Assembly (NCBI RefSeq): GCF_030408735.1 | Contig: NZ_CP047204.1 | Coordinates: 2,914,001-2,978,000 of the forward strand | Source: Corynebacterium faecale | GTDB taxonomy: Bacteria > Actinomycetota > Actinomycetes > Mycobacteriales > Mycobacteriaceae | DNA: 64,000 nt | Direction: 5' to 3' | In this document: positions 6,801 through 37,364 of the stretch, in pieces | Numbering within the stretch: the first letter of the stretch is position 1 | Layout: the number at the start of each line of letters is the position of its first letter | Translations under genes and position numbers: made by a program | Notes under the pieces: generated by a model | What the model was told of the DNA's origin: nothing | The model's database searches: none | The model's input: only the letters and a program-made list of their open reading frames with translations

Positions 6801-6813
6801 CTTCCACACGTGT

Positions 6814-6853
6814 CCGAACCCCCGATGTTTCACGTGAAACATCGGGGGTTCGG
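6814..6853. repeat. Perfect 40-bp palindrome centred on a parS site
   Basis: Arms 6814-6833 and 6834-6853 are perfect inverted complements (20 bp each), with no T tract afterwards. It lies between the permease and the Rieske gene and may act as a weak transcription stop as well as a ParB site. Confidence 0.9.
6826..6841. promoter_or_regulatory. parS: parS site 3 (ParB binding)
   Basis: Perfect TGTTTCACGTGAAACA at the centre of the 40-bp palindrome. Confidence 0.93.
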
Positions 6854-6892
6854 CAATTGGCTGTTCCTCTACAAACGGACGATACTGGAGTT

Positions 6893-19543: not shown

Positions 19544-21838
19544 CTACGCCGGAAGCAGATCCGAGGGTTCACCATGTGTGGTGATCACAAGCTCGTCACG
19601 CGCACGGGAGGCCGCCACATACAGCAGTGCGCGTTCCATCTGGAGGGCTTCTTCGCGCTCGGCTTCGGCCAAACCCGCCATCACCAGCTTGAACGGCAGG
19701 ACATCCTGGGTGATGCCCAGCAGCACCACGTGGGTGAATTCCATGCCCTTGGCTCCGTGCATCGTCATCACGCTGACTGCTTCGCGTGATGCCAATTCTG
19801 CGTTCTTGGTTTTCACCGCCTGGATGCCATGATCTGCCAGACCATTGACCGCGCGGTTAATCAGGGGGCGGGTGCGGGTGAGCACACCGATGTGGGCATC
19901 GTCGTCCCCGTCCTGCCATCCGGCTATCAATTCGGCCACTGCAGAAATCTCTTCGCCTTCGGTGGCGAAGCGGAGCAGTCGTGGCAGGGGACCGGAGCGG
20001 GCGGAACGGTAACCGTGGGTGGAGTCCTCCTCGCCTTCAGAGTCGATCCATTCACCGGTGAGCACACCGAGTGCATAACCCAGGTTCTCCCGGGTGGTGC
20101 GGTAGTTGAGTGTCAGGCGCCGTGAGGCACGCCCGCGGGTCTCAATGCCAAAGCGGCTGAGCACATAGCGCTGGCCGTAGATCCTCTGGTGGGAGTCTTC
20201 GGCGAGGAAGATGTCATTTGCACCCGGTCCAACCGAGGCACGGAGGAATTTCCAGTGGCCGGCGTGGAAGTCCTGGGCTTCGTCGATAAGCACGTGATCG
20301 AAGGTGCGCTGGCCGGTGGACTGGAAACGGTTGTCCAGAACCACAGCAGCGATGGTGGCCAGCCCGACATAGGAGAACTGGCCATCACGTGCCGTGGACT
20401 TCATGAAGGCTTCTATCAGTGGCCAGACCTGTTTGCGTTGTGCGCGGTTCAGGGAGGTGCCGCGCCCCGGGCGCGGAACCCGGAGGTAGGCAGCCTGCGT
20501 GGTGATCTGGTTGGCCAGCACCACGGCTTCGAATTCCTGGGAGAGAAAGGTTCGGTTGGCGATCTCCGGCGACAGATCCGGCCCAGCCAAGAGGAGTGCA
20601 TCCATCCAGTGCTGTTTGGTGTCATTGTCAGAGAGCACACGGGCCTGGCGGGAGGCCCTGCCCATCACCTGCTCGGTTGCGGCGACCAACTCAGACAGGG
20701 CGGCATCATCAAGGATCTTCCGCACGAGGGCATCAATGCCACTGATCCACAGACCGCGTTCACCGGGTTCACCCGCTTCGGGGAAGGCGGGGTTGAGCGC
20801 ATTCATCTGGGATTTGAGGCTCTCCGCAAGCCCCCGGGTAAAGGTGGTGAGAAGGACGCGGGGTGGGGCGCTATCAAGCATCGGTGTGGCACCGTTCGAG
20901 GTGACCAGGCGGTTGGCGCGGTGAACCACCACCACGGTCTTGCCGGTGCCAGCACCACCGGAGACGCGGCCGGCGCCGGAGAAGTTCTGCTCCACGATTG
21001 CCTGCTGATCCGGGTGGATGAACACGCGCCAGGAGTGGAAATCACCGGAATCGATGACCTTACGCAGTTCATCGGTATTCACGTTTTCGATATAAGCGAA
21101 CTCCATGCGGGCGCCGGGCTTCTTCAGGCCCTCGATGATCGCCTTGTCCGAGTTGCGTTCCTCCTCGGTCAACGCGTCGGTGGTCTTGATGCCCAGGCTT
21201 TCACGTATTTCCTCGATGGTGAAGCCCGCGACGATACCGAGCAGCGCATCGCGTTCCCATGCCGGGCTGCCCTCGAGCACATCCTCGATATTGTCCTCGG
21301 AGTCCAGCCCCATCACCACCTGGGTGGCTGCGGGTTCGATGCCGAGCTCCTGCTCCAGCAGCTCCGGCGTGTATCCACGGTTCTCAAATGCGTCACGGGG
21401 CTTAGGCAGGTCAACGGTGACCTCCTGCTCGGCCTGATGGTGCGCGGTTGCCGCTGCCTTCTCTGCTTTGCGACGCGATTCCAGGTCCGCGGTGGTTTGA
21501 CGTACTGGCGCCGTCTCCTCAATCAACCGCGTGATGCCGTTGACCGGGTTCACATCGAGACGAATCTTCTTAGCCTTCTCGATGCCCTCATCATGCGGGT
21601 ACACACCAGCTACAATGAAGTGTTGTTGAAACTCGTCGGTGAGTTCAAACATCACAGCCCGGTACTGCAAGTTGACGCGGCCGGTGCGGGCGCGGGGATC
21701 AACACTGCCGATGATCGGTTCCACGTTCAGCGCCGGGGAAGTGGGGTCCTGGCCTAGCTTGTCCAGGAAGTCCATGGTGACTTTTTTGATGCTGCCATCC
21801 AGATTGAGTGAGCCATGGATACTGATTGACACAGTCAT
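19544..21838 (-). CDS. UvrD/Rep-like SF1 helicase, last gene of the DISARM-like operon
   Basis: The protein has 764 residues. About 1-280 is a long N-terminal region without a recognised domain. The helicase core follows: Walker A GGAGTGKT (294-301), DEAQD box (about 519-523), MTMHGAKGMEFTHV (about 690-703) and LLYVAASRARDEL (motif VI). It should unwind or translocate along DNA in an ATP-driven way. An AGGAAGGA ribosome site precedes ATG 21838, and only 13 bases separate it from the helicase stop upstream, so it belongs to the same transcript. UvrD helicases are not part of canonical DISARM. Confidence 0.85.
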   Translation of the reverse strand: MTVSISIHGSLNLDGSIKKVTMDFLDKLGQDPTSPALNVEPIIGSVDPRARTGRVNLQYRAVMFELTDEFQQHFIVAGVYPHDEGIEKAKKIRLDVNPVNGITRLIEETAPVRQTTADLESRRKAEKAAATAHHQAEQEVTVDLPKPRDAFENRGYTPELLEQELGIEPAATQVVMGLDSEDNIEDVLEGSPAWERDALLGIVAGFTIEEIRESLGIKTTDALTEEERNSDKAIIEGLKKPGARMEFAYIENVNTDELRKVIDSGDFHSWRVFIHPDQQAIVEQNFSGAGRVSGGAGTGKTVVVVHRANRLVTSNGATPMLDSAPPRVLLTTFTRGLAESLKSQMNALNPAFPEAGEPGERGLWISGIDALVRKILDDAALSELVAATEQVMGRASRQARVLSDNDTKQHWMDALLLAGPDLSPEIANRTFLSQEFEAVVLANQITTQAAYLRVPRPGRGTSLNRAQRKQVWPLIEAFMKSTARDGQFSYVGLATIAAVVLDNRFQSTGQRTFDHVLIDEAQDFHAGHWKFLRASVGPGANDIFLAEDSHQRIYGQRYVLSRFGIETRGRASRRLTLNYRTTRENLGYALGVLTGEWIDSEGEEDSTHGYRSARSGPLPRLLRFATEGEEISAVAELIAGWQDGDDDAHIGVLTRTRPLINRAVNGLADHGIQAVKTKNAELASREAVSVMTMHGAKGMEFTHVVLLGITQDVLPFKLVMAGLAEAEREEALQMERALLYVAASRARDELVITTHGEPSDLLPA
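20282..20291. repeat. Copy of the window-wide 10-mer GTCGATAAGC
   Basis: One of nine exact copies (others: 6332, 7460, 14576, 16749, 33812, 45930, 57135, 61888, first base given). Function unknown; see findings. Confidence 0.7.
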
Positions 21839-21851
21839 TTAAGTGTCCTTC

Positions 21852-24800
21852 CTACGAGTTCAACAGTGCGGTGGGGATGTCATCGGCGCTGAGCGAATCC
21901 GCATGCAGCGCGGTCCAGCCCTTGTTTAGAAGTACGGCATCGGCTTCATCATCCGCTTCGAAGAGGAGAACAACCTTCTCCTGCGGCCACACCAGAACGG
22001 TGGCCACGGATTCCAATTCCTCGCCGAGCACCTCGGTGGGAGTGACGCCGGCGCTTGCGAGCGTGCGCAGCGCCTTTTCCACTTCCATATCGTCAGCGAA
22101 TTCTTCAAAGGCGTCCTCCCAACCGGCAGCCACGGCTGCGTGCTTATCCACGCCAACCTCATCAGCTGCCGCGACCTCCACTGGGGAAGTGGCAGTCTTG
22201 TTGGTGGACACCACCAGTGCATCATCAGGGGCCAACCACATGAGGTTGGCAAGCGTGAGGAAGGTATTCCAGACATCCTCGGGAAGATCGTCTGGGCCGT
22301 CGGTGAGGAGTTTGAGTTCCTTAGCGCGGAGTTTCTTGTTGCCCATGATGCAGCGGAGCTGGATCTGATTCATCAGGGTGCCCACGGGGTGCCCATCCTG
22401 TTTCGAGGGGGCGTGCGAGAACACATGCAATGCCATCGCATGCGCATACTCAGACCAGGCTGGTTTCGTGGGTTCTGCAAGATAGGCCAGGAGGAGATCC
22501 ACGGGGGACCCCTTCATCAGCTTCAATGAGGCCTGATCCAATATGGGGTTCCTGCTCACCAGCGCCTCAGCCTTTGGATGTACCCACGCAGGTTCTTCAG
22601 TTACTGGGTCGCCGAAGCTGTCGAGGTCTTTCCACGTCAGGTTCCAGGGCAGCACCGGATCCAGTTCATTGGTCAGGCGCGTGCGCTTTTCAATATCGGA
22701 ATGAACCCGGAAGGCAGTAGCAGAAATGTGGGCTGATTTACCGTCGAGGAAAACGCCCACTGAACGGTGATTGCCGTTGAGGGGTTCAAAGAAGAAGTCA
22801 GGGCGGGTGTAGACATACTCCCGCTCGGCACTCATCCGCCACCGCATTCCACCGGTGAAGGTGATGTCCAGTTGAGGTCGGCCATCAAAGACACGGTCCA
22901 CGATGGTGGCGTGACGGGCCTCCAGTGCCTTGCGGATCAATACCCGGAAGCGGAGCTCCAGCTTGGACTCTTCTGAAGGGGCAGGACGGGATTCCTGAAT
23001 GTTCCACTGCGTTGTGGTCGGATCCACGTTCTCATCCGGGGCGGAGGTATCCAGCAGGATAGCACTCAATGCGCCCTCCGCAGCGGCGCGAGACGTCACT
23101 TCCATGGAGCGACTGCGGACATAGGGGAGGAGGCAGTCCGGGCAGGCCAGTCGGTGATCATTCTGGCATTCGCAGGAGTTCACCCGCTCCCAGGCTCGGC
23201 TGAGCAGGTTGTGCACCGACTCAGGATCAGTGAACTGGGAAAGGTAACCGGTGCCACCGGGAACCTTGTCATGGAGGAGGAGCGCATCTACGGAACCACC
23301 GTCCTGGCGTGCAACCTGAACCGTGGCCACATCCAGGTGGGTTGGATCGCCACCCAATACCTCCTTGAAGCCGAGTTTGATCGCAGCAATCAGGCTCGGC
23401 ACGGTGAGGGTGTCAGCGGCACTGGTGAAGCGGTCCGGGATCAGCAGGAGAACACCCTGAGTGCGCAGTGTGCGTCCGAGTGCGAAGGCGACGGTGTCTT
23501 CTTCGGACTCATTACGCTGTGGGCACCAGGGGCGGTGATCATGCCAGGTGTTGGAACCGGCCTCAGAGTCCAGGTGCCCGCAGTGCTTGCAGACCCGGAA
23601 GAGCGGGGCATCAATCTCACCGCCGCTCAAGGGCAGTTTCTGCCCATTGCCCTGACCGAGGTTGAGCCAGCGGATCTCCACCTGCCGCAGGTGCTCCACG
23701 CCGAAGCCCTCCGTGAGGTACCAGGATGCACCGCGGCCACCATCGGGAACAGTGAAACTGACATGTTGGTGGAAGCGGGCGGAGTAGCGGTCATCGCGGT
23801 TGTCGGAAATGATGGCGCGGGTCTGCTCCACCTCGGATGAGACCTTGCGCATCTGCACCACATCGATGATCTGCCCCTTGTCTGCAAATCCTGGCGATCC
23901 ACATTCCGGGCAGGAACCTGGGGTGTGATTCTCCCCAAGGAGGATTGCTGAGTAAGAACAAGAAGGACACATCCGCCACTGTTCGATGGCTGATCCCTGA
24001 TGGCCGATCTCCACGACGTCGATGGTGGCGGCAATGCCCTGGGCATAGAACGTGGCGCCTGGCGCGAGCTCGAAAAGCGCGGAGGAGACACCGCGGGAGT
24101 AGGAATAGGCTTCAGTGTCAAAGACCATTTCCTGCGGATTGAACTTGGACACCGCTACGGATAGTTCCACGGAATCATCCAGGAGGGTGAAGTTGGGCAG
24201 CAAACCGAAACGCTCCATGGACCCAATCCAATGCTGGCCCTCCACGATGGATTGCAGTTGATAATTCACATGCCGGAGGGAGGCTCTGATGATCCGCTTT
24301 TCTTCTTTGAGTTCACGATCATGCTCATCAGACCGGAGGCTGAGTTCGTCGAGTCGCTCATTCAGGAGACCGCGACGGGAGTGGAGATCATATTGTTCGT
24401 TTTTCCATGTTTCACGTGAAACATTGATCTTTCCGATGAGGGAGTCCGCCTCATCACTGAAGGCCCAGGAACGGAGACTTGCCACCGTGTCGCCATCGAC
24501 ATGACCGTTCAGAGAGCTGATGAAGGAATCAAGAAGATCATCAATCCCGGTGCGCACCCGGGCGACGATGATGTCAGCCAGGGCCGGTTCGCCGGGTATT
24601 TGATTAAACACATCCACCGCGGTGGCGAGTTCAGGGATTTCCGCCTGGGTATCGATTGAATCCACCAGATAGGCGGTGAACTGACGGTTGAGGATTTCCA
24701 CCGCCGACAGGAACGCCACCGGGGGAGTCACCGAACCAGAGATCACCGACAACGGCTGGTTCAGCTTGGGAAGTGTGATGCCACGGCCCCGCACCAGGGC

Positions 24801-27800
24801 GATCACCAGGGAGTTACCGGTGAGGCGCCCGGCGCGACCCACACGCTGCACATAGCTGGCCACCGAAGTGGGCAAAGAGGCAAGCATGACGGTGGATAGA
24901 TCACCGATATCAATACCCATCTCCAGCGTCGGGGTGGCCACGAGAACGTTCGGGGCATTGGGTGCGGTGGTGGTGGAGGAACGGAAGGACTGTTCCAACT
25001 GCAGGCGGACCTTCTTGTCCAGCAAACCGGTGTGTTCCTTGGCCACCACGGTGCGTGGTTCCCTGGCCGAGTAGAGGCGACGATAATAATTGTCCTCCAC
25101 TTGCAGGGCTGCCTGATGCCCCGCACAGCCGGGAGTGAAACATGGATGTCCATCCAGACGATCGCGGACAGTGGCGGAGACACCGATGCGGGAATGGCAG
25201 ATGGTGCATTCCAGAATGCATGGTTCAGCTTCTGCCCCGATGCGGATGCGGTCCGCGCTCAGACCGTAGATGGTGCCGCCGGAGTCAGTGGGCGTTGAGT
25301 CAAGGATGTGGCGTCGGGAGAGCTCGTCGAAAAGCTTGGCCACCGCGGTGGCCGCATCGTGTGTGCCCAGACCAAGCAATTTGGCCGTCCAGATGGCAAA
25401 GCGCCCCCGTGGACTTCCCAACGGGGTGGTGCCGGTGTCACGTCGGGCAGCGGTGGTCAGCTGTGGGCCCACCCGGGGAAATTCTGGTGAACCGCCTCTG
25501 GGGAAAGCGGGGATGCCGCGTGCACGTGCCTCCCGACGGTTCAACAGATACGCATTGCCATCATCTCTGAGATAGGGCTGCAACCATTCATGATGGACAC
25601 CGCCACGCAGGCGGGTCATCTCCAGCACGCCCTGGACCCACGCCAATTGCAGGGCGCGGTTGTTCATCTCCAGGGTGGGGGAGGCGACGGCTGTGAGCGC
25701 CTCAGCTGCGGCTGTGAGCGCGGCTGCCTCCGGGGTGTCCACGCTGATGGTGAGCGAACCCGTCAGCGCCAGGGAGCGCGTGAGATGCGCACGTTGGCCG
25801 AACTCCAGCACCAGGTCAAAGCCGAGGCGTCTGCGCGCCTCGCGGTTTGCTTCTCGACGCTCCGAATCCGTGGCATCAGGGTGCCAATAACTTTTGAACT
25901 GATCAAAATCCACCAGGTCCGGTGGCAAGAGTTCATAGCGGGAACGGGGATCATCGGCTAGCTCCATCAACCGATCCGGGAGCTGATCCAGGGTGACTTC
26001 ACCATCACCGACCGCGCGCCGAGTGAAGGTACGCAGCGCGAAAGCTCGCGAACGAGCCTGGACGAAACCGGCGCGGTGGGCGGCATCCTGAACAGAGTCG
26101 GTGAAGATGAGTGTTTTCTTCTCCGCGGGATCCAACTCGGGCATCCCGAAAAGATTGGACAGCGCCACGGAGAGCAGAGTGGCCACCGAGGAGCCGATAA
26201 AGCGGATGGAATCATTCTCACCGCAGGAAGGACAGCGCTGTTCACCGGCAAAATCATCCGCATCCGGGCCGAAGTGCGTGAGCACCGGGATGGACTGTTC
26301 ACGCTCTAGTTCCTCATCGCGCGGGGTGCGGGTGGAAAGTTCCCGGGTATCGGTGTGCAGCCACAACACGGCAGATTCACCATCGGTACCACGCGGCCCT
26401 GCAACAGCCCGCCCGGCGTCAATGGCATTACGGTATTCAGAGGTGGCATCCAAGAGTGGGCGTTGACGTTCCCGGTTCTTCAGCGATCCGGTCCGGATGG
26501 CCGGTCCTTCCATCAGGGGAGCATCGGTGCCAGGTTCCAGCTCCGTCATCCACCCGGCACGACCACAGCTGCGGCAATAACAGGCGGGCAGCCAGGGAAC
26601 GTTGTCCTCGCCGCTCTCTTCCGCCGGGCCGTCATCAAACCACCGGAACAGCTGACCATCCTCAGGGATAGCAATGGCCCGGTCAATCCGCGAGACCTCA
26701 CGAACCCAGAGATGGGTCTCCACACCGGGGAGCCTCTTGCCACCCCACTTATCCTCAACACCCCACGCGGACCGCAGATACGCAATAGCGGTCAGTGCAT
26801 GGGTGATGAACTCCCTGGACTTTTCTTCTCCCAGCAACCGGAACGTGGAACCCAGTACCAGTTCGGGCAGCGTGCTGGTCTGATCCTGTTCACGGTGGGT
26901 CATCGGCACTGCCGTAGAAGCATGCTCAAGCAGGGCAGCGGTGAGTTCATGATCAGCGAAGTTGGCGATGGCTGGTTTCAGATCTGGCGCGCAGTGCCAG
27001 ATCTTTTCACAGAACACCTCAAAGGTGCGCTCGGCATAACCGTTAGCTGCGTCCTCTTCTGCGATGAGATCCAAGATTTCATTGATCAACTCAACAGCGG
27101 GGAGGTCTCGGCCCTCTGCGTCCAGTGTGGAACTACCGAAGGTGGCAACGATCTCCTCCCGCCACTCATCAATGGTGAGAGTCTTCTCTGAGACGATGGC
27201 ATGATCGGCGAAGCGTTCACCAAAGATGGTGTGCGCGAATTCCAGCATGGGGTTGGTGCCGTCACCGGGGGCCTTATCGGATCCCAGGGTGGCTGAGGTG
27301 GCCACCGGCACTACCTGTCCAAGAGGGCGGGCAGCGGCCTCCCCATCAAGGAAACCCGTTGGCTGATGCGACTTCAGCTGTAAACCCAGACGACGCAGCA
27401 ACAACGCCACATCCGTGCCCTGAGCGCCGTCATAGGTATGGAACTCATCCAGAACCAGATACTGCAAAGACTCCGCGGAATGTTCCCAAATCTCACGGTC
27501 ATTACTGCGCAGCAGTAGCTGATCCAACATCTTGTAATTTGTGAGCAAAAGATCCGGTGGATCCTGACGCATCTTCTCACGGTTGGTGATCAAAGACTTC
27601 TTACTCACCTTGGTAGCACCACTACCGGAGGATTCACCGGTGTAGATACCTGCGGTGACACCTTCCAACTCTGGGTGCTCGGTGAGCAGCTGGGCCAGGC
27701 GATCAGCCTGATCATTGGCCAGGGCGTTCATCGGATACAGCAACAGCGCTTTTACTCCACGCTGCCCCTGGGCCCGCATGCGTCGGGCATGATCCAGGAT

Positions 27801-28160
27801 GGGGTAGAGGAAGGACTCTGTCTTACCCGAGCCGGTGCCGGTGACCACCAAGGTGGGATCAGGACGCCGCTCGCCGTGCTCATCAACCGACCGCAACCTG
27901 CGAAACGCTTCCGCCTGGTGGTGGTAGGGCACGAAGTGTTCCGGTAACCATGACAGCACACCCTCCCAGTCCCGCGCCTGGGCATAGGGGAGACGACTCC
28001 TCACATACGGTCCGTGGAACATCCCGGCATCAGCATCACCGAGGAACCGCTTGAGCGCCTCCCCGGTCTCCTGATCCGCAAGCGAGAAGCTGGTGGTCAA
28101 GTATTCCGTGAGACCTTCAAGGATATTGCCGGCCACATGGGCTGGGATGAGCGTGGACAT
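21852..28160 (-). CDS. Giant DEAD/DEAH helicase with MrfA/DUF1998-like region and possible C-terminal nuclease domain
   Basis: The protein has 2102 residues. The N-terminal SF2 helicase has Walker A TGTGSGKT (107-114), LYPMNALANDQ, a DEFH box (about 238-241) and a second RecA domain with TPTLEMGIDIGDL and QRVGRAGR around 1090-1140. Several CxxC pairs follow (CPSC...CPEC; CKHCGHLD; CECQ...CPDC at about 1665-1680), the last typical of the MrfA/DUF1998 zinc site. Near 1785-1806 the segment RPDFFFEP...VGVFLDGKSAH looks like a PD-(D/E)XK nuclease core. In DISARM the helicase (DrmA) and DUF1998 protein (DrmB) are separate; here both seem joined. ATG 28160 has a GGAG just upstream. parS site 6 lies inside the gene. 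Confidence 0.85.
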   Translation of the reverse strand: MSTLIPAHVAGNILEGLTEYLTTSFSLADQETGEALKRFLGDADAGMFHGPYVRSRLPYAQARDWEGVLSWLPEHFVPYHHQAEAFRRLRSVDEHGERRPDPTLVVTGTGSGKTESFLYPILDHARRMRAQGQRGVKALLLYPMNALANDQADRLAQLLTEHPELEGVTAGIYTGESSGSGATKVSKKSLITNREKMRQDPPDLLLTNYKMLDQLLLRSNDREIWEHSAESLQYLVLDEFHTYDGAQGTDVALLLRRLGLQLKSHQPTGFLDGEAAARPLGQVVPVATSATLGSDKAPGDGTNPMLEFAHTIFGERFADHAIVSEKTLTIDEWREEIVATFGSSTLDAEGRDLPAVELINEILDLIAEEDAANGYAERTFEVFCEKIWHCAPDLKPAIANFADHELTAALLEHASTAVPMTHREQDQTSTLPELVLGSTFRLLGEEKSREFITHALTAIAYLRSAWGVEDKWGGKRLPGVETHLWVREVSRIDRAIAIPEDGQLFRWFDDGPAEESGEDNVPWLPACYCRSCGRAGWMTELEPGTDAPLMEGPAIRTGSLKNRERQRPLLDATSEYRNAIDAGRAVAGPRGTDGESAVLWLHTDTRELSTRTPRDEELEREQSIPVLTHFGPDADDFAGEQRCPSCGENDSIRFIGSSVATLLSVALSNLFGMPELDPAEKKTLIFTDSVQDAAHRAGFVQARSRAFALRTFTRRAVGDGEVTLDQLPDRLMELADDPRSRYELLPPDLVDFDQFKSYWHPDATDSERREANREARRRLGFDLVLEFGQRAHLTRSLALTGSLTISVDTPEAAALTAAAEALTAVASPTLEMNNRALQLAWVQGVLEMTRLRGGVHHEWLQPYLRDDGNAYLLNRREARARGIPAFPRGGSPEFPRVGPQLTTAARRDTGTTPLGSPRGRFAIWTAKLLGLGTHDAATAVAKLFDELSRRHILDSTPTDSGGTIYGLSADRIRIGAEAEPCILECTICHSRIGVSATVRDRLDGHPCFTPGCAGHQAALQVEDNYYRRLYSAREPRTVVAKEHTGLLDKKVRLQLEQSFRSSTTTAPNAPNVLVATPTLEMGIDIGDLSTVMLASLPTSVASYVQRVGRAGRLTGNSLVIALVRGRGITLPKLNQPLSVISGSVTPPVAFLSAVEILNRQFTAYLVDSIDTQAEIPELATAVDVFNQIPGEPALADIIVARVRTGIDDLLDSFISSLNGHVDGDTVASLRSWAFSDEADSLIGKINVSRETWKNEQYDLHSRRGLLNERLDELSLRSDEHDRELKEEKRIIRASLRHVNYQLQSIVEGQHWIGSMERFGLLPNFTLLDDSVELSVAVSKFNPQEMVFDTEAYSYSRGVSSALFELAPGATFYAQGIAATIDVVEIGHQGSAIEQWRMCPSCSYSAILLGENHTPGSCPECGSPGFADKGQIIDVVQMRKVSSEVEQTRAIISDNRDDRYSARFHQHVSFTVPDGGRGASWYLTEGFGVEHLRQVEIRWLNLGQGNGQKLPLSGGEIDAPLFRVCKHCGHLDSEAGSNTWHDHRPWCPQRNESEEDTVAFALGRTLRTQGVLLLIPDRFTSAADTLTVPSLIAAIKLGFKEVLGGDPTHLDVATVQVARQDGGSVDALLLHDKVPGGTGYLSQFTDPESVHNLLSRAWERVNSCECQNDHRLACPDCLLPYVRSRSMEVTSRAAAEGALSAILLDTSAPDENVDPTTTQWNIQESRPAPSEESKLELRFRVLIRKALEARHATIVDRVFDGRPQLDITFTGGMRWRMSAEREYVYTRPDFFFEPLNGNHRSVGVFLDGKSAHISATAFRVHSDIEKRTRLTNELDPVLPWNLTWKDLDSFGDPVTEEPAWVHPKAEALVSRNPILDQASLKLMKGSPVDLLLAYLAEPTKPAWSEYAHAMALHVFSHAPSKQDGHPVGTLMNQIQLRCIMGNKKLRAKELKLLTDGPDDLPEDVWNTFLTLANLMWLAPDDALVVSTNKTATSPVEVAAADEVGVDKHAAVAAGWEDAFEEFADDMEVEKALRTLASAGVTPTEVLGEELESVATVLVWPQEKVVLLFEADDEADAVLLNKGWTALHADSLSADDIPTALLNS
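24408..24423. promoter_or_regulatory. parS: parS site 6 (ParB binding), inside the giant helicase gene
   Basis: Perfect TGTTTCACGTGAAACA within coding sequence, read on the minus strand as NVSRET, the same peptide as in trpCF. Confidence 0.93.
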
Positions 28161-28328
28161 GGATCTCCAACCGAAAAATCACCGAGGGAAGAAAACAACT
28201 GTTCTGCCTAGAAAGATTACCCGGCAGCCTTGACACGCTTCCGAAGTCCAAGGATTTTCACTGGTTAAGCCTTCAGAAACCGAAATTCAAGCAGGCATTT
28301 CCTAATTACATTTATAGGATTATAATTT

Positions 28329-28408
28329 AACATTGATTATGAAAAGGACTATGGCACCTGGACCACCCCATCCGGCCCCATACCCGTCGCCTCCACCTAC
28401 CGCATCGC
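28329..28408 (+). repeat. Left inverted repeat of the methylase specificity switch (80 bp)
   Basis: This stretch is the reverse complement of 29794-29873 with one mismatch (at 28381). It is in frame with the silent cassette and encodes the same ~26 residues (NIDYEKDYGTW...) as methylase residues about 1280-1305. Confidence 0.92.
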
Positions 28409-29105
28409 ATGGCGAACCATGGCGGCGACGACCGGTTACCGAACTATTTATCCGGCAATCATTCCTGAAGGTGCTTACCATGTCGATCTTGTAATGAGTG
28501 CGGGGCATGTTGAAACTAACGCAAAAACCGTCTTGGCAGGTTTAGTTCTCTCTTCGCTGCTGATTGATTTCCAGTTCAGATCAACGGGATCTGGGCATAT
28601 ACGTGGCAGCAATGTTGATTCTCTCCCTTTGCCAAAAGACAACTCTCTAATCCCCCTAGCTGTACGAGCCTACCTGCGACTGAACTGTCTTACTGCAGCT
28701 TATGCTCCGCTATGGAAAGAGATAACCGGTGAGCCTTGGACAGCTGATGTGCCACTGCGTAAAGGCCGAGAGCGACAGGAAGCACAGAATGAGATCGACG
28801 CCCTCGTCGCCCTTTCCCTGGATATCACCGCGGATGAGTTGTGCATGATCTACCGGACGCAGTTCCCCGTTATGCGTCGCTATGACCGGGAGGATCTCTA
28901 CGACGCTAACGGACGTAAAGTGCCGAACGGTATTAGAAAGGCACATCAACAGAATGGTTGTGAGGAAATCCTTTCAACAAGTCAACGAACCTGGGTGCAT
29001 CCTCAATCTAAAAAGGAGTATGTCTACGAGTATCCCTTCTCCTCACTTGATAGGGAGAATGGGCTCCGAGAAGCCTATGGTCGTTTCCAGGGGTCAGTTA
29101 TCTAG
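28329..29105 (+). pseudogene. Silent, inverted alternative C-terminal specificity cassette of the adenine methylase
   Basis: The 258-codon open frame is a divergent copy of the methylase C-terminus, on the opposite strand and without its own catalytic part or promoter. Shared blocks include MAATTG, ITGEPWT, DVPLRKG, ADELCMIYRTQFPVMRRYD, GRKVP and QRTW-HPQS; between them the sequence differs, as expected for alternative DNA-recognition domains. Its length (258 residues) matches the expressed version (259). It ends at TAG 29105, tail to tail with the methylase stop (12-base overlap). A stop codon at 28323-28325 closes the frame just before the repeat. An inversion at the repeats would place it in frame with the methylase. 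It has no stops and looks functional, so it is a stored cassette rather than a decayed gene. Confidence 0.88.
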
Positions 29106-32100
29106 TAATACTTCTTCATACTTGAGATAGGCCGTCCGTAAGTCCTTCTCGCGATCCCGCACTTGGAACGGATACTCAAATAGGTAGGTGACTCCAGATT
29201 GGGGATGAATCCAGGTGCGTTGCTCCTGGGTGAGTTCTTGACCTTCCTGCAGTTTTTTCTGCAACACCATCACTTCTTTGGGTACTTTGCGCCCGTGACG
29301 ATCGAACCTATCTTCCAGGTCATAGCGACGCATTACTGGGAACTGTGTCCGGTAGATCATGCACAGTTCATCGGCGGTAACCCCGAGTGATAGAGCGACA
29401 ATCCCATCAATCTCGATCTGAGCTGCGCGACGATCGATGCCTTTTCGCAATGGGACATCTTTCGTCCAAGGTTCACCAGTGATCATTTCCCATAGCTGGG
29501 AATAAGCAGTGGTCAGGGAATTGAGCTGCAAATATAGTCTCTCAAGCAGCTTCTTTAATTTGGGATCAATCTGAAAAGGTATGCGGCGAACAATGTCATT
29601 AAATATATGGCTGGAGCCACTTGAACGAACAAAGTAGTCGCTTAACATTGAACTCATCACGGCTCCAAGCTGCACCGTTTTTTGGGCCGTTTCGGCTGAA
29701 CAGGCGTTCACGGTGTGAACGTGTGTAGAGCCTGGCGGAATAATTGAGGGATACACGGTTCTGAAACCAGTAGTAGCCGCCATTTCCCGCCAGGCGATGC
29801 GGTAGGTGGAGGCGACGGGTGTGGGGCCGGATGGGGTGGTCCAGGTGCCATAGTCCTTTTCATAATCAATGTTTTCGGACAAGTCACGATTGGGCTGGTA
29901 GGCCGTTGCAGGTATGAAGTCTTCCGGTAGCGCCTCAAGGTCAATCTCAGCCCAATCCTTGTTGCTACTCATGGTGGGATTGGGTTGTTTGATCATTGGC
30001 GTTGATACTCCGAGATGAGGCCCTTGAAGAATTACATCATCCCATGAAGCTGGGTGCCCCCACCCGACATCAAAATAGCCTTTCTTTTTATCGGCGCTTT
30101 CATGCCACCCACTAGAGAACGACAGTCCCAGTTCTTTTACTCTCGGGGCGGCAGCCAGTTTCTCAAGCACTGCAGCGGCTTCGGTGTTCACGGTATAAAC
30201 CATTCGGGCTTCCAAGAGGGACGTAGATTCATCTTCGAGGATGGACTTCCATACCTTCAACACATGTTCATCTACCTGTAAAATGCGATCACGGTGTGGG
30301 CGACGATCCCAGTTTCCTTCATCATCTTTCAAACCAGGCAGAGGCCCTGAACCATCGTGGTTGAGAGAATCCGCCACAGTGTGTGGATGGTAAAGAGAAG
30401 CAGCATTCAAGAACGACACTGATTCACCAGGTTTGCTGTAAACGTTTATCCCGTAAGAGACCAAGTTATGAACATCGAATAGCCTTAATTCATTAATAAA
30501 TTGCCAATGTCTGCGCAGCCGTAAGTATGCCCCTCTACGAAGTGAAGCTGCTTTCTTTTCGGTGAAGTGGGATTCGGGGTGAATCAATGAAATTACGCCG
30601 GTATCAGACGCAATGGTCCAAGTGCGTTCCATAAATCCCCGGTAGAGATCCGGCTGCTGCCCCCGGAGATGAGGATACGTAGCTATATCACCGAGGAATG
30701 CTGCGGCGGCTATGGTTTCCCCGACTCCTCGCAAAATCACTTGAGTGGCTTCAACATGGTGTCGAAGTCCCTCGCGGCGTTCACGCTTTTCCTGCTGGGT
30801 GGGTTTATGGGCCAATGAGAACCACGGATCCACTTCCGAAGAAAGAGCGTCCAGATCTGTACGCGGACGGACCCATGGCGGATTACCAACCTGCAGATCA
30901 AAACCACCCTGGGCAAACACGGCACCAAAATCAAGGTCCCAGTGGAAGAACCCCTGCTGCTCAGCAATACCTCGTACTGTCTCAAGCCACGGATGAGCAT
31001 TGAAACACTTCTCAATGCTCAATGCGTTGGCGAACTGCCAGTCAGAATTCTCTGCAGCATTCAGGTCCGCCCATGAACTGTTCTCATTGATCAGATACTG
31101 CCCGGCATCTTTCTTCTTCACTGCAACATCAGTTCCAAGGATGTCACGCAAAGCTGCCAGCCACTCGTCAAGGTTAGGCAGGGAAGTGCGATCGGAGTGA
31201 CCTTCAGTGGGAACGACATCCAATGGCCAGAACCACAGTGCACACCAGGCGTCCATCACTAGGCGAAGCCGGTTGTAGGCACCATTGAGATTCTCAAAGA
31301 GATCCTTTTCGATCTGTTCCCGCGTGACGTTCTTGGCGGTTCGATCATTTTCCCGACCCCAGATATCGATGTCACGGCGAGCCTGGTCTTCCGCAATACG
31401 TAGACGAATGAGGGCGAAGCGCCATAGGGTTTCCACACGTCGGGCCAGGTTCTGCAGAGCAGTAGTCTGCGTCTTATTCGGCATCAACCGGATCTGCTTG
31501 CGCCACTCCTTGAGTGCCTTCTGCTCTTCCGCAGCGATGTCCTTGAGATCCTTGGCATCAGCTACAGCACCCCAGCCATTGGATGGAAGAAGGAAGTGAT
31601 GAATGCCCTCAGCAAGCATCACCCCGGTCTCGCCAGCATCAACGGCTTCCGCGATATCAGTCAAAGACCGCCTCTTAGGAACAGCCGTCAACCATTCCTT
31701 CTTCTTCAATTGGTTCAGCGCGTAAGTAGAACGTGAAGCACCAACAAGGGAGTTTCCTCGGCGCAGATGCAATCCGAACCAGGGGGCTTTGAGATCTGCC
31801 GTCATGGTGTCCAACCAGAGCGAGATTTCGGCCAGCTCGACGGCAGTGGCGTTGAGGTCCACGCCGTAGACCTGGTGCAGCGCGATGTGTGCTTTGACCT
31901 TTTGCAGTTCCTTCGTGCGATCTTCTGAAGGAATCTGCTGGTCAAGCTCTTGCTGACGAAGTTTGATGTACAGCTCCGCCAACTGACGAACTGCCTCCAC
32001 GGCGAAGGCACCAGAGCCCATGGCGGGTTCACAGATGGTCAGGCTGAGGACATCTTCAGCTGTGGTGATTCGTCCTTCTTCTTTAAGGACCTCAATGGCC

Positions 32101-33710
32101 TGTCCAACCGTGAACTCAGTAAGCACCTGTGGAGTATAGAAAGAAGCAGAGCGCTCACGGTCGCGGGAGGACTGGCGGAAGACGAAGGAGCCGCGTGCAT
32201 GTCGGCGACGCTGGCGCATGGTGCCGCCTTCAGCAGCTTCAACTTCCTCTTCAACGAAGCTGTCCTGGGGGACGGTATCCGCCTTGGCTACCGGCAGGAC
32301 CCATGAGCCTTTCTCCGGGTTGCCCTTGGGGGCAACCTCAAAGAGGTCTTCTTCGGCGATAAAGCCAGTGTAGGACATCAGCCCCTCATAGACCTGTCCG
32401 AGCTCAGTGACACCCAGGGTGGCGTAGGAAATGAAACCACGGTCCCGGCCGGCCTGCTGCTTGGAAAGCAACAGGTTCTCCAAGACCTGGTTGAGGGTGG
32501 CATTGGAGAGTTTTACCCGGTCTATAAGAGCCGTGGCTGTGGATTGGAAGAGATCCGCCGAGAGGTTGCGGAACTGCAGGCCCTTTTCACCTGCATCAGG
32601 ATCAAAATCCGGATTCTCGGGATCCTCCGGATCATTACCCTTATCAACTAGTTTGAACAGCACCTGCAGTGATCCATAAAGGTGGGTGCCACTGCGGGCT
32701 TGTTGGGTGACTGGGGGAGTAAGGATCAGTTCCCGGAGACGGGAGAGCCCATAACCGTCGTCATACTCAGGTGTGCCGGTAGGGAGAATTTCTAGTTCCG
32801 GAGAAGCCTCCGCGAAGAGCAAGAAGAGAATGCGATAGAGGTAACGCAGGGATTGTTTCGCCAGCTCATTGCCGTCAATGTCCTCAATGCTGATGCCTTG
32901 TTCCCGGTGGCGGGTAAGAACATCATTGCCAAGAAGTTCAATGGATTCCCGTACCGCGTTGCGGAGCTCACCGGAAACCTTGACGGCATGCTCACGGGAT
33001 TCTTCGATGGTGGAAGACCACCAGGTAGTGCCATCAGCTGCGCGTTCAATGTTTTCCCTGGCCAGGGCCACTGCAGCGCGCTGCATCTCACCCTTGGCTT
33101 TGGTTTCATTTCTTTCCACCACCAACGCCAAGTTGATGGCCAGATGGCGGCCCAGGGGCCAGGACTCGCGCTCAGCAAGCACCACCCAATCTCCGGCCAG
33201 GACCACCACGAATTCCGGTGGGGTGTCTGATAGGAAAAGATCTCCCACTAATTTGGCTGCGGTGGCGGTGTCATCCTGCTTGTCTTTGACCAGCACACCA
33301 CCGATCAGCGGGGTATTGGTGAGATCCTCTGGGGTAGCGATGGACTCCGCAGCAATGACAATCATGCTGCCGGCGTTTCCGGCCCAGCCCTGGTAGGAAA
33401 TAGTGTCACCCGCACGGTGCAGCGTCCGGAGCTCAGGTACGCCATAACCAAAGGCCTGACGGATTAGAACATGGGCATCCTCCGGTGAGGAATCCTCATC
33501 CAGCAGGGAGAGTTCGGTCTCCAGCTGGCCCCGCATACCGGTGAAGCGGGTCCACGGGGAGGGGTGACCAGACTCGTCTTCTTCCTTCTTCCAATCCCGG
33601 ATACACTCAACTACCCGTTTGGAGAAGGACGCACCTTTTGTCTCATCGGTGGTGAGAAAGTGATCGCTAATCCACTCTTCAACGTTGACGATGGAATCAT
33701 ATGCGGCCAT
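29094..33710 (-). CDS. Eco57I/PglX-like N6-adenine DNA methyltransferase with switchable specificity domain (DrmMI-like)
   Basis: The protein has 1538 residues. The SAM-binding motif I is CEPAMGSGAF (about 560-569) and the catalytic motif IV is NPPW (about 943-946), typical of N6-adenine methylases of the Eco57I/PglX group. The C-terminal part from about 1306 to 1538 is the likely target recognition domain; it has an inverted alternative copy just downstream, and the boundary is an 80-bp repeat encoding residues about 1280-1305. The start ATG 33710 lies 5 bases after the SNF2 gene stop, with GAAGGAGG inside the end of that gene. It should mark self DNA so the helicase complex spares it. PglX of BREX is related, but no pglZ, brxC or pglY is present. 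Confidence 0.88.
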   Translation of the reverse strand: MAAYDSIVNVEEWISDHFLTTDETKGASFSKRVVECIRDWKKEEDESGHPSPWTRFTGMRGQLETELSLLDEDSSPEDAHVLIRQAFGYGVPELRTLHRAGDTISYQGWAGNAGSMIVIAAESIATPEDLTNTPLIGGVLVKDKQDDTATAAKLVGDLFLSDTPPEFVVVLAGDWVVLAERESWPLGRHLAINLALVVERNETKAKGEMQRAAVALARENIERAADGTTWWSSTIEESREHAVKVSGELRNAVRESIELLGNDVLTRHREQGISIEDIDGNELAKQSLRYLYRILFLLFAEASPELEILPTGTPEYDDGYGLSRLRELILTPPVTQQARSGTHLYGSLQVLFKLVDKGNDPEDPENPDFDPDAGEKGLQFRNLSADLFQSTATALIDRVKLSNATLNQVLENLLLSKQQAGRDRGFISYATLGVTELGQVYEGLMSYTGFIAEEDLFEVAPKGNPEKGSWVLPVAKADTVPQDSFVEEEVEAAEGGTMRQRRRHARGSFVFRQSSRDRERSASFYTPQVLTEFTVGQAIEVLKEEGRITTAEDVLSLTICEPAMGSGAFAVEAVRQLAELYIKLRQQELDQQIPSEDRTKELQKVKAHIALHQVYGVDLNATAVELAEISLWLDTMTADLKAPWFGLHLRRGNSLVGASRSTYALNQLKKKEWLTAVPKRRSLTDIAEAVDAGETGVMLAEGIHHFLLPSNGWGAVADAKDLKDIAAEEQKALKEWRKQIRLMPNKTQTTALQNLARRVETLWRFALIRLRIAEDQARRDIDIWGRENDRTAKNVTREQIEKDLFENLNGAYNRLRLVMDAWCALWFWPLDVVPTEGHSDRTSLPNLDEWLAALRDILGTDVAVKKKDAGQYLINENSSWADLNAAENSDWQFANALSIEKCFNAHPWLETVRGIAEQQGFFHWDLDFGAVFAQGGFDLQVGNPPWVRPRTDLDALSSEVDPWFSLAHKPTQQEKRERREGLRHHVEATQVILRGVGETIAAAAFLGDIATYPHLRGQQPDLYRGFMERTWTIASDTGVISLIHPESHFTEKKAASLRRGAYLRLRRHWQFINELRLFDVHNLVSYGINVYSKPGESVSFLNAASLYHPHTVADSLNHDGSGPLPGLKDDEGNWDRRPHRDRILQVDEHVLKVWKSILEDESTSLLEARMVYTVNTEAAAVLEKLAAAPRVKELGLSFSSGWHESADKKKGYFDVGWGHPASWDDVILQGPHLGVSTPMIKQPNPTMSSNKDWAEIDLEALPEDFIPATAYQPNRDLSENIDYEKDYGTWTTPSGPTPVASTYRIAWREMAATTGFRTVYPSIIPPGSTHVHTVNACSAETAQKTVQLGAVMSSMLSDYFVRSSGSSHIFNDIVRRIPFQIDPKLKKLLERLYLQLNSLTTAYSQLWEMITGEPWTKDVPLRKGIDRRAAQIEIDGIVALSLGVTADELCMIYRTQFPVMRRYDLEDRFDRHGRKVPKEVMVLQKKLQEGQELTQEQRTWIHPQSGVTYLFEYPFQVRDREKDLRTAYLKYEEVLLDN
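29794..29873 (-). repeat. Right inverted repeat of the methylase specificity switch (80 bp)
   Basis: It is the reverse complement of 28329-28408 with one mismatch in 80, and lies inside the methylase gene at codons about 1280-1305. Outside the repeat the two copies are clearly diverged, so this block alone has been kept the same. Confidence 0.92.
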
Positions 33711-33715
33711 GAGGT

Positions 33716-36550
33716 TTAGGCCTCCTTCTGCTGATGAGCGGGCACGATCAGTGCAAGTGGGCGGATGAGTTCACGGTCGGGTTCGAGGGAGTTGGCGAGT
33801 GAACGTTGTTCGTCGATAAGCTTTGTGGCCAGCGCAAGGCCCGAGGAGCGCTGGCCAGCGCTCCTCCCGGATTCCCAGGCCTCGGAACGTTTCAGCCAGT
33901 GCCCGATACGGTTTTTGGCTCCGCTGCGGGCAGCCATCATCATCGGATTGAGCTGGCCACGGGCAGCTTCCACGGTGTCAGCGATGAGCTTGTTGGTGGC
34001 ATCCGGAATCACGGCGTCACCCATATTCACGGCCGTGTCTCCCAGGCCGATGTCATGGATCCACCTGACCACATCGGGCAGTACCTGGGCCTCATAACGG
34101 CTGGTAGCGGCGACAAAGGCGCGGGAGACCACCTGGCCACGGCGGTTGGTCAAGGTGGCCATGAGCAGGACAGTTGGTTCAGCGACGTTGCCGGAAATGG
34201 CTGGGATGGTCCGGCGGCTCAGGCTAGCCAAGGCACGGTCGGAGGCCCATTCACTCACCGGATGCAGCGGTCCGAGGAAGTGGGCGGTGGGCCAGGTGGA
34301 ACCGGCATCACCAGTGCGGGCAGCCTGGAGGCGTTCATCACCGCGCATCGCAGAGGTGGCCAGGATGAGCTTCTCTTTCACCTTCCGATCAGCAACATAA
34401 TCCTGGGGAAGAAAATCGAGGCGCCGGCGTAGATCCTCCGGGGGCGTCAGCTCAGCGATGTCATTCTTGTGCTCAATGTAGCCAACCCCGCCACGGCCGA
34501 TGGTGTCCTGGGGGACACCGTTGAAGGCCTCCGACAGAGCATCGTTGAGGTAGTCGATCTCGCGTGGGTACAGGCTGCTCAAGGTTGCTTGGGGTTCAAG
34601 CGTGGCAGCATCTTCTTCATCTTCATCGAGGCCGAGTTCCGCGAGCAACCAATCAATCTCGTCCATGCCCTCAGGCAGATCGCCACCAATCAGATCCTCC
34701 GGGTTGGCCACCACATCATCGAATTCACGGATGCCGCGGAGTACATCGCGGATGGTGTCTTCCTCCATCTTCTCTGAGTGCTTGCCCATGAGGGAGGAGG
34801 CATCACCGAGGAGTTTGTGGGCTTCATGTTCACGCTCAATGAGGCGTTCCAGCACATGGAGTTCACCAACTTTGCCGCCATCGGTTGGGTCGAGCAGGAG
34901 AGTGGCGATCTGCGGATTATGGGTCTGCCCATAACGATCAATACGGCCGTTACGCTGCTGGATTCTGATCAATGACCAGGGGATATCGTAGTGCACCAGG
35001 TTGTGGCACAGGGAATGCAGGTTCACACCTTCAGAGGCGACATCGCCGGTGATCAGGACGCGGATGGGGGAGTCGGTGCGCTTGAAGGCATCAACAAGCC
35101 TCATCTGTTCCTGGTCCGTCAGGCCACCGTGCATGATCTCCACGGCTGCCTTGGGCAGTTTGAGGTACTTGGTCAGGTTCTCCTGCAACCAATGCAGGGT
35201 GGCGACGCGCTCAGAGAAGATCACCACGCGGGTGTCTGAGTTCTTGGCAATGCCGATCTCCTGCAGATAGAGCACCAAGTTGCGGAACTTGGCGGAGTTC
35301 TCCGGCGTGATCGCGGTGTTGAGTTCCCGGAGGCGTTCCAGGGCGGTGCGTTCTGGCTGTGACGGGCCGCGTTTGAGGCGGTTATTGAGTGTTTCATCGA
35401 GCGCGGCGGGGGAGGAGAGGAAGGCCTTGACCAGAGTCCACGGGAAGAGACGGTCCTTCACCGGGTTGTCCGCGCCCGGAGTAATCCAGGTGGAGTCGAG
35501 TTCACGCGCAACGGCATCTTCTTCCGGGGAAGCATCAACCGGGATGTTGCGGGGTTCATTGCGTTCGGCCCACTTGGCACCGACCACGCTGGCTACCTCT
35601 TCGCTGTTGCGGTGGCGACGGATGATCAGGCGCTTGGCGGCCTCATGATCGATCGTGCCGTCCGGTGCCACTGACGTGGGATCCAGCAGGCGGAGGATCT
35701 CCTTGAAGGATTCTGGATCACCATTGTGCGGGGTGGCAGACGCCAGGATCAGGGCATCGGTGGTGGGGGCGAGGGTGCGGGCCAGCTGGTTGTTCTGGGT
35801 GCCCACGTTGGTGGCGTTGTGGATCTCATCCATCACCACGGCATCCCAGTGGACTTTCTCCAGCTGGGCCCGATATTTGGGTGATTTGAGGGTGTCCATG
35901 GAGACGATCACCCGTGGGAAATACGTGAACGGGTTGCGGGAGGCCGGGAGTTTCTGGCGAACCTGTTGGATACCCACGGAATCCAAACGCACCAGGGGAA
36001 TGGCGAAGCGGGTCCACATCTCCTGCTGGAACTGTTCCATGATGTGGCGAGGGGTGACCACCAAGATGCGTTCACCGCGGCCACGTCGGATGAGTTCCGC
36101 CAGGATCATGCCCATCTCCAAGGTCTTGCCAAGGCCCACGGCATCAGCGATGAGCACGCGGGGACGCAGGTTGTCCGGGGAGAGGGCCTTCTTCACTGCT
36201 GCCAGCTGATAACTCAAAGGATCAGCGAGCATCTCATCGGCTACGGCGAGATCCTCCTGATAGAGGGGAACCGGGGTCTGACGGAGTGTTGTTTCCAACC
36301 ACAGGCGGGTGCGCCGATAGGCAGGGGATTCATCAGCGATGACCTCCACTGCGGTGGGGTCGAGGATTTGGATGTCTTTATCCAAGGCAGTGTAGAACGT
36401 AGCCGGTTGATCGCGCACATAATCACTCAGGCCCCGGACCTTCAGGCGGAAGCCATCAGTAGAGCGGGCGACGTTGGTGACCAGCCAAACCTCATCCCGA
36501 ACTTCAATGGTGACACCGGGAGCCAGCTGATGAGTGCTTAAATCGGACAT
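33716..36550 (-). CDS. SNF2-family helicase/translocase (DrmD-like)
   Basis: The protein has 944 residues. Walker A is ADAVGLGKTLEM (GLGKT at 139-143), the DEAH-type box is MDEIHNATN (about 240-248), motif III is ASATPHNGD, and the second RecA domain holds FSERVATLHWLQ, TGDVASEGVNLH and QQRNGRIDRYGQ (motif VI). It is the first gene of the operon and matches the SNF2 helicase DrmD of class 1 DISARM in size and type. ATG 36550 has a leaderless -10 box TATCGT at -12 to -7, so the operon promoter is here. The enzyme should move along duplex DNA using ATP. Confidence 0.88.
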   Translation of the reverse strand: MSDLSTHQLAPGVTIEVRDEVWLVTNVARSTDGFRLKVRGLSDYVRDQPATFYTALDKDIQILDPTAVEVIADESPAYRRTRLWLETTLRQTPVPLYQEDLAVADEMLADPLSYQLAAVKKALSPDNLRPRVLIADAVGLGKTLEMGMILAELIRRGRGERILVVTPRHIMEQFQQEMWTRFAIPLVRLDSVGIQQVRQKLPASRNPFTYFPRVIVSMDTLKSPKYRAQLEKVHWDAVVMDEIHNATNVGTQNNQLARTLAPTTDALILASATPHNGDPESFKEILRLLDPTSVAPDGTIDHEAAKRLIIRRHRNSEEVASVVGAKWAERNEPRNIPVDASPEEDAVARELDSTWITPGADNPVKDRLFPWTLVKAFLSSPAALDETLNNRLKRGPSQPERTALERLRELNTAITPENSAKFRNLVLYLQEIGIAKNSDTRVVIFSERVATLHWLQENLTKYLKLPKAAVEIMHGGLTDQEQMRLVDAFKRTDSPIRVLITGDVASEGVNLHSLCHNLVHYDIPWSLIRIQQRNGRIDRYGQTHNPQIATLLLDPTDGGKVGELHVLERLIEREHEAHKLLGDASSLMGKHSEKMEEDTIRDVLRGIREFDDVVANPEDLIGGDLPEGMDEIDWLLAELGLDEDEEDAATLEPQATLSSLYPREIDYLNDALSEAFNGVPQDTIGRGGVGYIEHKNDIAELTPPEDLRRRLDFLPQDYVADRKVKEKLILATSAMRGDERLQAARTGDAGSTWPTAHFLGPLHPVSEWASDRALASLSRRTIPAISGNVAEPTVLLMATLTNRRGQVVSRAFVAATSRYEAQVLPDVVRWIHDIGLGDTAVNMGDAVIPDATNKLIADTVEAARGQLNPMMMAARSGAKNRIGHWLKRSEAWESGRSAGQRSSGLALATKLIDEQRSLANSLEPDRELIRPLALIVPAHQQKEA

Positions 36551-36752: not shown

Positions 36753-37364
36753 ATGGAATCATTTTTACTAACCATTCTTGCTTCGTCTTCTGCATCTCTC
36801 ATCACAGGCTTCTTTACATGGAAGGCTGCCATCGGTGCGCAGAAACGGGCAGCATCGATCGAGAAACAGAATAGAGAAATCGACCAGGAAACCACCGAGA
36901 ATAAAGCACAACTCCGTGCTGTTGCAGACTATTTCCAGGAGGTTGCCCAACTCCGAAAAGAATGGCGAAGGCAGTCAGAGGCTGAGATATCTGCACATAA
37001 ATCCCACCAGGGTGAATCCGCAGCAACTAAGGCGGCACTAGAGCTCAGACACCAATACCTAACAGATCTTCGGAATGCCACGAGGTCTCTAGACCTCTAT
37101 ATTTACGACCAACAAATCAGCAGAGAAGTTGAAAGAATAATAGAAATCGTGGGGGATACGTTTGTAAACTCAGAAACGGATTTCCGTGAGTTCAGTAAGG
37201 CAAACCACGAAAGTATATTCAGAACGATACACTATCGGGTTCTTAAAGCTCACGACCAAGCCTTTGATGAATTATTGGATCAAGTACTTGATTCTCTCTA
37301 TTTACTATCTCGAGAACAATTTGGGTTCTGGAAGAAACCCGATTTCAAAGGCCTATTCACCTGA
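36753..37364 (+). CDS. Uncharacterised membrane-anchored coiled-coil protein
   Basis: I do not recognise a family. The 203-residue protein starts with one membrane segment (about residues 4-25, LLTILASSSASLITGFFTW), followed by a charged, helical region (about 28-110, rich in E, K, Q, R) likely to form a coiled coil facing the cytoplasm. The C-terminal half is also helical and charged. Base composition is clearly more AT-rich than the core genes, which suggests acquired DNA. It is divergent from the DISARM-like operon with 202 bases between starts, so it may be a partner or accessory of that defence system; it could equally be an unrelated cargo gene. Confidence 0.7.
   Translation: MESFLLTILASSSASLITGFFTWKAAIGAQKRAASIEKQNREIDQETTENKAQLRAVADYFQEVAQLRKEWRRQSEAEISAHKSHQGESAATKAALELRHQYLTDLRNATRSLDLYIYDQQISREVERIIEIVGDTFVNSETDFREFSKANHESIFRTIHYRVLKAHDQAFDELLDQVLDSLYLLSREQFGFWKKPDFKGLFT

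Follow-up and report, generated by a model that had tools for sequence, protein, structure and literature searches.

The armABCD operon and its two opposed C-termini

The 64,000-nucleotide stretch of Corynebacterium faecale analysed here (the window; its genome is G000 in our genome comparisons) carries four large genes on the minus strand: armA (33716-36550), armB (29094-33710), armC (21852-28160) and armD (19544-21838). The product of armB is a PglX-like N6-adenine methylase, and paired, opposed copies of its C-terminal part sit between armB and armC. We consider it probable that, in this ARMADA type II anti-phage operon, the arrangement lets the specificity of the ArmB methylase be switched by inversion.

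A repeat search of the sequence identified two 80-bp copies at the ends of the paired region. The left copy (28329-28408, plus strand) encodes NIDYEKDYGTWTTPSGPIPVASTYRIA, while the right copy (29794-29873, minus strand) lies within armB and corresponds to residues 1280-1306. As the original prediction had it, the two are reverse complements of each other with one mismatch, which falls at position 28381. A repeat tool reported inverted homology over 137 nt at 88% (28329-28465 and 29737-29873) and over a further 253 nt at 72% (28675-28927 and 29278-29530). The whole window holds 41 exact inverted 24-mers with copies within 20 kb; among the matches listed, the first three belong to the 80-bp repeat and the last three to a short palindrome near 6820.

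From this anatomy, the segment predicted to invert spans 28409-29793 (~1.4 kb). The C-terminus in the current expressed position (residues 1280-1538 of the translation) occupies 29094-29873 on the minus strand. The silent alternative C-terminus, or cassette, occupies 28329-29105 on the plus strand and, judged by sequence, frame and synonymous comparison, comprises the second half of a target-recognition domain (TRD) and the C-terminal region. Its frame is open from 28326 to 29105 (259 residues between stops, or 258 codons counted from the start of the repeat) and is preceded by an in-frame stop at 28323-28325. The cassette (end at 29105) and armB (end at 29094) meet tail to tail with a 12-bp overlap and both contain ADELCMIYRTQFPVMRRYD, which bears out the earlier description of the second frame as a divergent methylase C-terminus with a retained anchor. 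That the repeat is in frame with both the methylase and the 258-codon frame was likewise confirmed, by the frames themselves and by a scripted inversion of 28329-29873: armB stays open with 1537 residues (1538 now), and the other cassette stays open with 259.

On sequence grounds, the operon is ARMADA type II and its methylase is ArmB. We name it so because the gene order SNF2 helicase, methylase, DruE-like helicase and UvrD helicase is the strict order ArmA, ArmB, ArmC, ArmD published for this type (Bell et al. 2025, PMC12458937). In the part of that paper available to us, ArmB is described as a PglX-like methylase with an S-adenosylmethionine (SAM)-binding GxG and a catalytic NPPW motif. The other traits given there are a YprA-like helicase nearest Druantia DruE with a DUF1998-type Zn-binding domain, a Vsr-type nuclease ending ArmC and a RelE-like N-terminus on ArmD. 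The four-gene order, the protein families and the NPPW PglX-like methylase all match the window. ArmA (944 aa; PADLOC, Pfam, translation) is a SNF2/RapA, BrxHII/DrmD-like helicase with DrmD as its top PADLOC match. ArmB (1538 aa; translation, PADLOC, Pfam, fold) matches best a PADLOC "type IIG" model, with 2478 bits across residues 1-1535; its translation contains both EPAMGSGAF (SAM-binding GxG) and GNPPW (catalytic NPPW), and its fold resembles BrxX and CamA. ArmC (2102 aa; PADLOC, Pfam) is a YprA-like, DruE-like helicase with a Zn-binding MZB domain; its top PADLOC matches are DruE (1.8e-80), and Pfam finds DEAD, Helicase_C and MZB. ArmD (764 aa; PADLOC, Pfam) is a UvrD/GajB-like helicase, with NERD+UvrD first and GajB next in PADLOC. 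A search with sequence profiles only gave no Pfam match at E 0.001 for a Vsr-type nuclease at the ArmC C-terminus or a RelE-like N-terminus on ArmD.

The methylase had originally been called DISARM-like, a label that ArmB now replaces on account of the gene order and the fused helicase-MZB protein. In DISARM, the helicase core (DrmA) and the DUF1998 region (DrmB) are encoded separately (PMC12458937, available part), whereas the window joins the helicase and the DUF1998-type MZB in one 2102-aa protein, and a DISARM identity was rejected. Class 1 DISARM (DrmMI, DrmD) does contain relatives of the window's methylase and SNF2 helicase, but the window's YprA-like helicase with its fused MZB is nearest Druantia DruE, its best match. 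The operon also differs from BREX: its four large genes (19544-36550) are armABCD, and a search confined to those genes found no pglZ or brxC and no BREX partner among them. Upstream of armA, on the opposite strand, lies a 203-aa frame (36753-37364, plus) with no Pfam match.

Hypervariable blocks of the recognition domain

A sequence search of ArmB against solved structures gave no match at E 0.01, so folds were compared. The C-terminal domain of ArmB folds like the TRDs of M.BseCI, CamA and PglX. Eleven ArmB sequences from E. coli, 96-100% identical over residues 1-1090, delimit two hypervariable blocks, whose edges were smoothed over 15 residues. Mapped from E. coli ArmB onto the window, block 1 (residues 1072-1157; 30240-30497, minus) lies outside the invertible segment in this genome. 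Block 2 (residues 1306-1415; 29466-29795, minus), placed by the same mapping and by the fold, lies inside the TRD fold, and its start at residue 1306 coincides with the end of the 80-bp repeat. The fold and the E. coli hypervariable block thus support that the exchanged segment holds the second half of the TRD. Since only the second of the two blocks lies in the segment, inversion would probably alter part of the recognised motif. The earlier proposal of a TRD exchange therefore stands for the second half of the domain, and an exchange of the whole motif probably does not.

The two blocks of E. coli ArmB (L122, L124-L133) reassort among the sequences, across strains and plasmids. At all 11 of these loci armB adjoins armC with no cassette between, and self-comparison of two E. 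coli loci and one Tsukamurella locus found no inverted copy. As the blocks reassort without a spare cassette, ArmB specificity in E. coli probably changes by exchange between strains.

Recombination at the repeat and recurrence of the layout

We then compared the two C-termini with each other and with those of relatives; in the conservation, informative-site and synonymous comparisons the repeat was taken from residue 1271 or 1277 to 1304 or 1305 (exact limits 1280-1306). Within G000, the synonymous difference between the two copies amounts to 0.83 over the recognition part and 0.71 over the conserved end, but to just 0.01 over the repeat. So steep a contrast between the repeat (0.01) and the conserved C-terminus after it (0.71) means that the repeat is not a product of chance. 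Nor can protein constraint explain its identity, because conservation between species is poor in this stretch (the conservation profile includes one incorrect G127 protein). These data show that the repeat has been homogenised between the two copies, a mark of past recombination at this point. For most pairs, the ratio of amino-acid-changing to synonymous substitution (dN/dS) was not derivable because synonymous sites are saturated.

One could instead take the plus-strand frame to have a product of its own, either a separate small specificity or regulatory protein or an antisense regulator transcript of armB or armC. The first ATG, GTG or TTG in frame is the ATG at 28419, which could start a protein of 228 aa, and a TATAAT just upstream (28321-28326), read by eye, is a candidate promoter; the corresponding cassette of another genome, G217, has a GTG start for 271 aa. 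However, the ATG at 28419 is the Met of a conserved MAATTG motif that also occurs in full-length ArmB proteins, and the homogenised 80 bp lie upstream of this ATG and would stay untranslated. A separate product is thus very improbable.

The comparison with G217, which shows the same layout as G000, bears on the age of the cassettes. All four informative residues in the repeat sort by genome. Nine informative sites fall in the recognition part, of which 8 sort by allele and none by swap (Fisher p 0.007); 5 of these 8 lie within residues 1306-1340. As repeat sites group by genome and recognition sites by allele, the comparison suggests, with modest support, that the cassettes predate the split of the two species and that homogenisation of their heads took place within each lineage. 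Pooling three genome pairs gave p = 1.7e-6; as these pairs share genomes, this result is not relied on.

The layout recurs beyond this pair. Matches to armB at E 0.001 occur in 70 of 242 Corynebacterium genomes, and 49 hold a large part of the gene. Of these, 46 were inspected (G014, G191 and G193 were left out), 34 with several kb of downstream sequence and 12 with 1.5 kb or up to the contig end. Five of the 46 have an opposed second C-terminus: this genome, G042, G217, G127 and G165. G127 carries two consecutive spare cassettes, and the end of its expressed copy is aberrant past residue about 1510 of the open frame. The cassettes of G042 and G165 start before block 1 and hold both blocks, which are parted by a conserved stretch (residues 1158-1189; 88% and 100% of bases, respectively). 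The longest exact inverted runs are 57 bp in G042, 38 bp in G127 and 278 bp in G165, and no common short recombination site was seen by eye among the exact runs of different genomes.

At the level of the order, 43 of 397 genomes match at 1e-30. A DNA self-comparison of 29 new loci among them (L091-L119, with 1.5-kb flanks), which could miss strongly diverged copies like that of G217, yielded one more case, G628, from another genus of the family. At the class level, where at most six candidates were scored per genome, 40 of 394 genomes carry the ArmB C-terminus, and an opposed second copy at one place occurs only in this window. A scan of genome contigs covered 24 loci, one of them from Corynebacterium (C. 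mendelii, L060); 23 reach the armB end (all but L053), and none of these has an opposed second C-terminus. One IMG/VR scan found no relative.

G628 contains what appears to be an actual inversion. Residues 1-559 of its armB are followed directly, but out of frame, by residues 1118-1528 of one cassette. On the other strand, residues 556-1528 come behind residues 1026-1120 of the other cassette. Both breaks fall at the 12-mer GAACATGACGGT, present in opposite orientations at the two ends (7761 and 11930 of L120), and an exact 164-bp inverted repeat starts at this 12-mer. A recurring short sequence at a break was seen in G628 only. The arrangement shows the product expected of one inversion, with armB lost; this is one genome, and a misassembly is possible.

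This case also bears on a further alternative, in which the plus-strand copy is a silent donor for one-way gene conversion, without inversion. Conversion from a silent donor is known from pilin variation; it could by itself homogenise the repeat, and the opposed orientation would be no obstacle. Conversion across block 2 would, however, equalise the copies, and in the six genomes block 2 of the expressed copy (residues 1306-1415) still differs from that of the nearest silent copy (39-56% identical). Together with the inversion seen in G628, this persistent difference makes one-way conversion quite unlikely, and we return to a switch by inversion.

Several observations weigh against such a switch. 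The opposite orientation was not found in relatives, among which each species was represented by one genome. No match to PF00589 or PF00239, the two recombinase families searched, lies in the 64-kb window, in agreement with the original prediction that there is no invertase nearby. The inversion in G628 breaks armB, so that genome shows that inversions occur and speaks for their occurrence, not for their usefulness. Grouping by allele was seen in one of seven genome comparisons, that of G000 with G217, and the other six lack the pattern; between G000 and G628 the TRD groups mostly by genome (7 of 10 sites). TRD residue identity between G000 and G217 is 53% for the expressed pair and 52% for the silent pair, and between the copies within a genome it is 51% in G000 and 35% in G217. 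The silent pair of G000 and G217 is only 38% identical in residues 1341-1405, and the sites beyond the TRD are mixed (2 by genome, 2 by allele, 3 by swap). Because no TRD site is of the swap type, G000 and G217 express the same allele. In G217 the DNA of the two repeat copies has drifted apart (synonymous difference 0.92; no exact run longer than 17 bp), so homology-driven switching may have stopped there, and the upstream GTG start of its cassette makes separate expression possible in that genome.

The single known orientation, the lack of a PF00589 or PF00239 recombinase near the locus and the diverged repeat of G217 would all fit a static inverted duplication, that is, an idle C-terminus left over from an old duplication or horizontal transfer. 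Yet the two C-termini are no recent duplicates (TRD 51%), while their 80-bp heads are almost identical. The silent copy also keeps a 258-codon open frame in which synonymous change is saturated and amino-acid change limited, and the back-to-back layout recurs in six genomes. Thus, we regard a static duplication as unlikely.

Between armB and armC, other loci show a different pattern. In L036-L041 (G187, G210, G061, G095, G183 and G079), the 3' end of armB is repeated one to three times in direct orientation. These copies, of up to about 380 bp (residues about 1406-1535), are 86-98% identical, except for one L036 copy at 67-69%. They bracket other genes, such as a MazE/PIN pair followed by a D12 methylase in L038, and a CHAT-domain protein and a Hypoth_Ymh protein in L036. 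The pattern suggests that defence cargo has been inserted repeatedly at the armB end, renewing the gene end. L039 (G095) holds two directly oriented copies of the armC start (6195-6873 and 501-1179; 95.6% over 679 bp). L045 (G236) holds two armB 3'-end remnants about 5 kb apart, and no full armB was found in that genome.

A candidate switch of the ARMADA self-mark

We then propose a model for the invertible switch. Recombination between the 80-bp repeats would flip the 1.4-kb segment. The shared N-terminal catalytic part would then continue in frame into the other C-terminus, and the first C-terminus would fall silent. Each alternative C-terminus would supply a second half of the TRD. If inversion goes on in this strain, each flip would change half of the motif that is methylated. 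Should restriction depend on that mark as well, the protected and attacked sites would change, and with them the phage DNA that is restricted.

The flip is likely to be driven by homologous or short-repeat recombination, with no dedicated recombinase at the locus. The whole genome has three PF00589 and eight PF00239 matches, elsewhere on the main contig or on C2 and C3; of these, a partial resolvase at C1:2847730 comes closest, at a distance of about 94 kb. The original prediction favoured RecA or a remote recombinase. RecA is not the sole candidate: recombination at the 85-bp repeat of pneumococcal spnIII is unaffected by loss of RecA or of the local recombinase CreX (PMC6620402, in the part available to us), so that, in principle, no dedicated enzyme is needed.

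The closest precedent is the invertible type I hsdS locus. Inverted repeats in spnIII (85 bp among others, compared with 80 bp here) shuttle TRDs between expressed and silent places (PMC6620402, available part), and the window likewise has in-frame inverted repeats with expressed and silent copies that carry different TRDs. In type I systems, however, the TRDs reside in a separate S subunit, whereas here the TRD forms the C-terminal portion of the methylase itself, a protein of 1538 residues whose partners are three helicases. BREX offers a second likeness, since full-length and partial PglX-type methylase copies are described at one locus (PMC7513527, available part). PglX is reported to be phase-variable, with activity or specificity thought to vary (PMC11341690, PMC9122589). 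In Lactobacillus rhamnosus BREX a site-specific integrase lies between the PglX copies (PMC7513527, available part), but none lies between the window's copies. The paper on ARMADA type II (PMC12458937), in the part of its text available to us, contains neither "phase" nor "Corynebacteri", and its only "inver" word stands in a reference title. In our searches of the open-licence full-text literature, outside of which most subscription papers fall, no account of invertibility in an ARMADA or DISARM methylase came up. TRD inversion is known for hsdS, and what appears to be new is an ARMADA methylase as its probable carrier.

It is tempting to go further and view ARMADA in Corynebacteriaceae as a self-diversifying immune system with a two-part recognition domain, a tentative idea to which we give somewhat less than an even chance. 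Cassettes that start just before block 2 (G000, G217, G127) would swap half of the motif, and those that start before block 1 (G042, G165 and the inverted relative G628) carry both blocks, parted by conserved stretches. Inversions at two places could therefore give four combinations, and the two spares of G127 would add more. Under this idea, the new sites on the cell's own chromosome would be unmodified after a switch, and ARMADA would therefore have to delay or license restriction.

If the switch is real, a recently described anti-phage family of three helicases and a methylase would resemble type I restriction systems and some BREX systems in that a single clone varies its self-mark. The switch would also delimit the ArmB recognition module, and motifs would be predicted to be exchangeable as two half-modules. 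The locus would then provide two natural states in which to study how ARMADA distinguishes self from non-self and why the cell is not killed when the mark switches.
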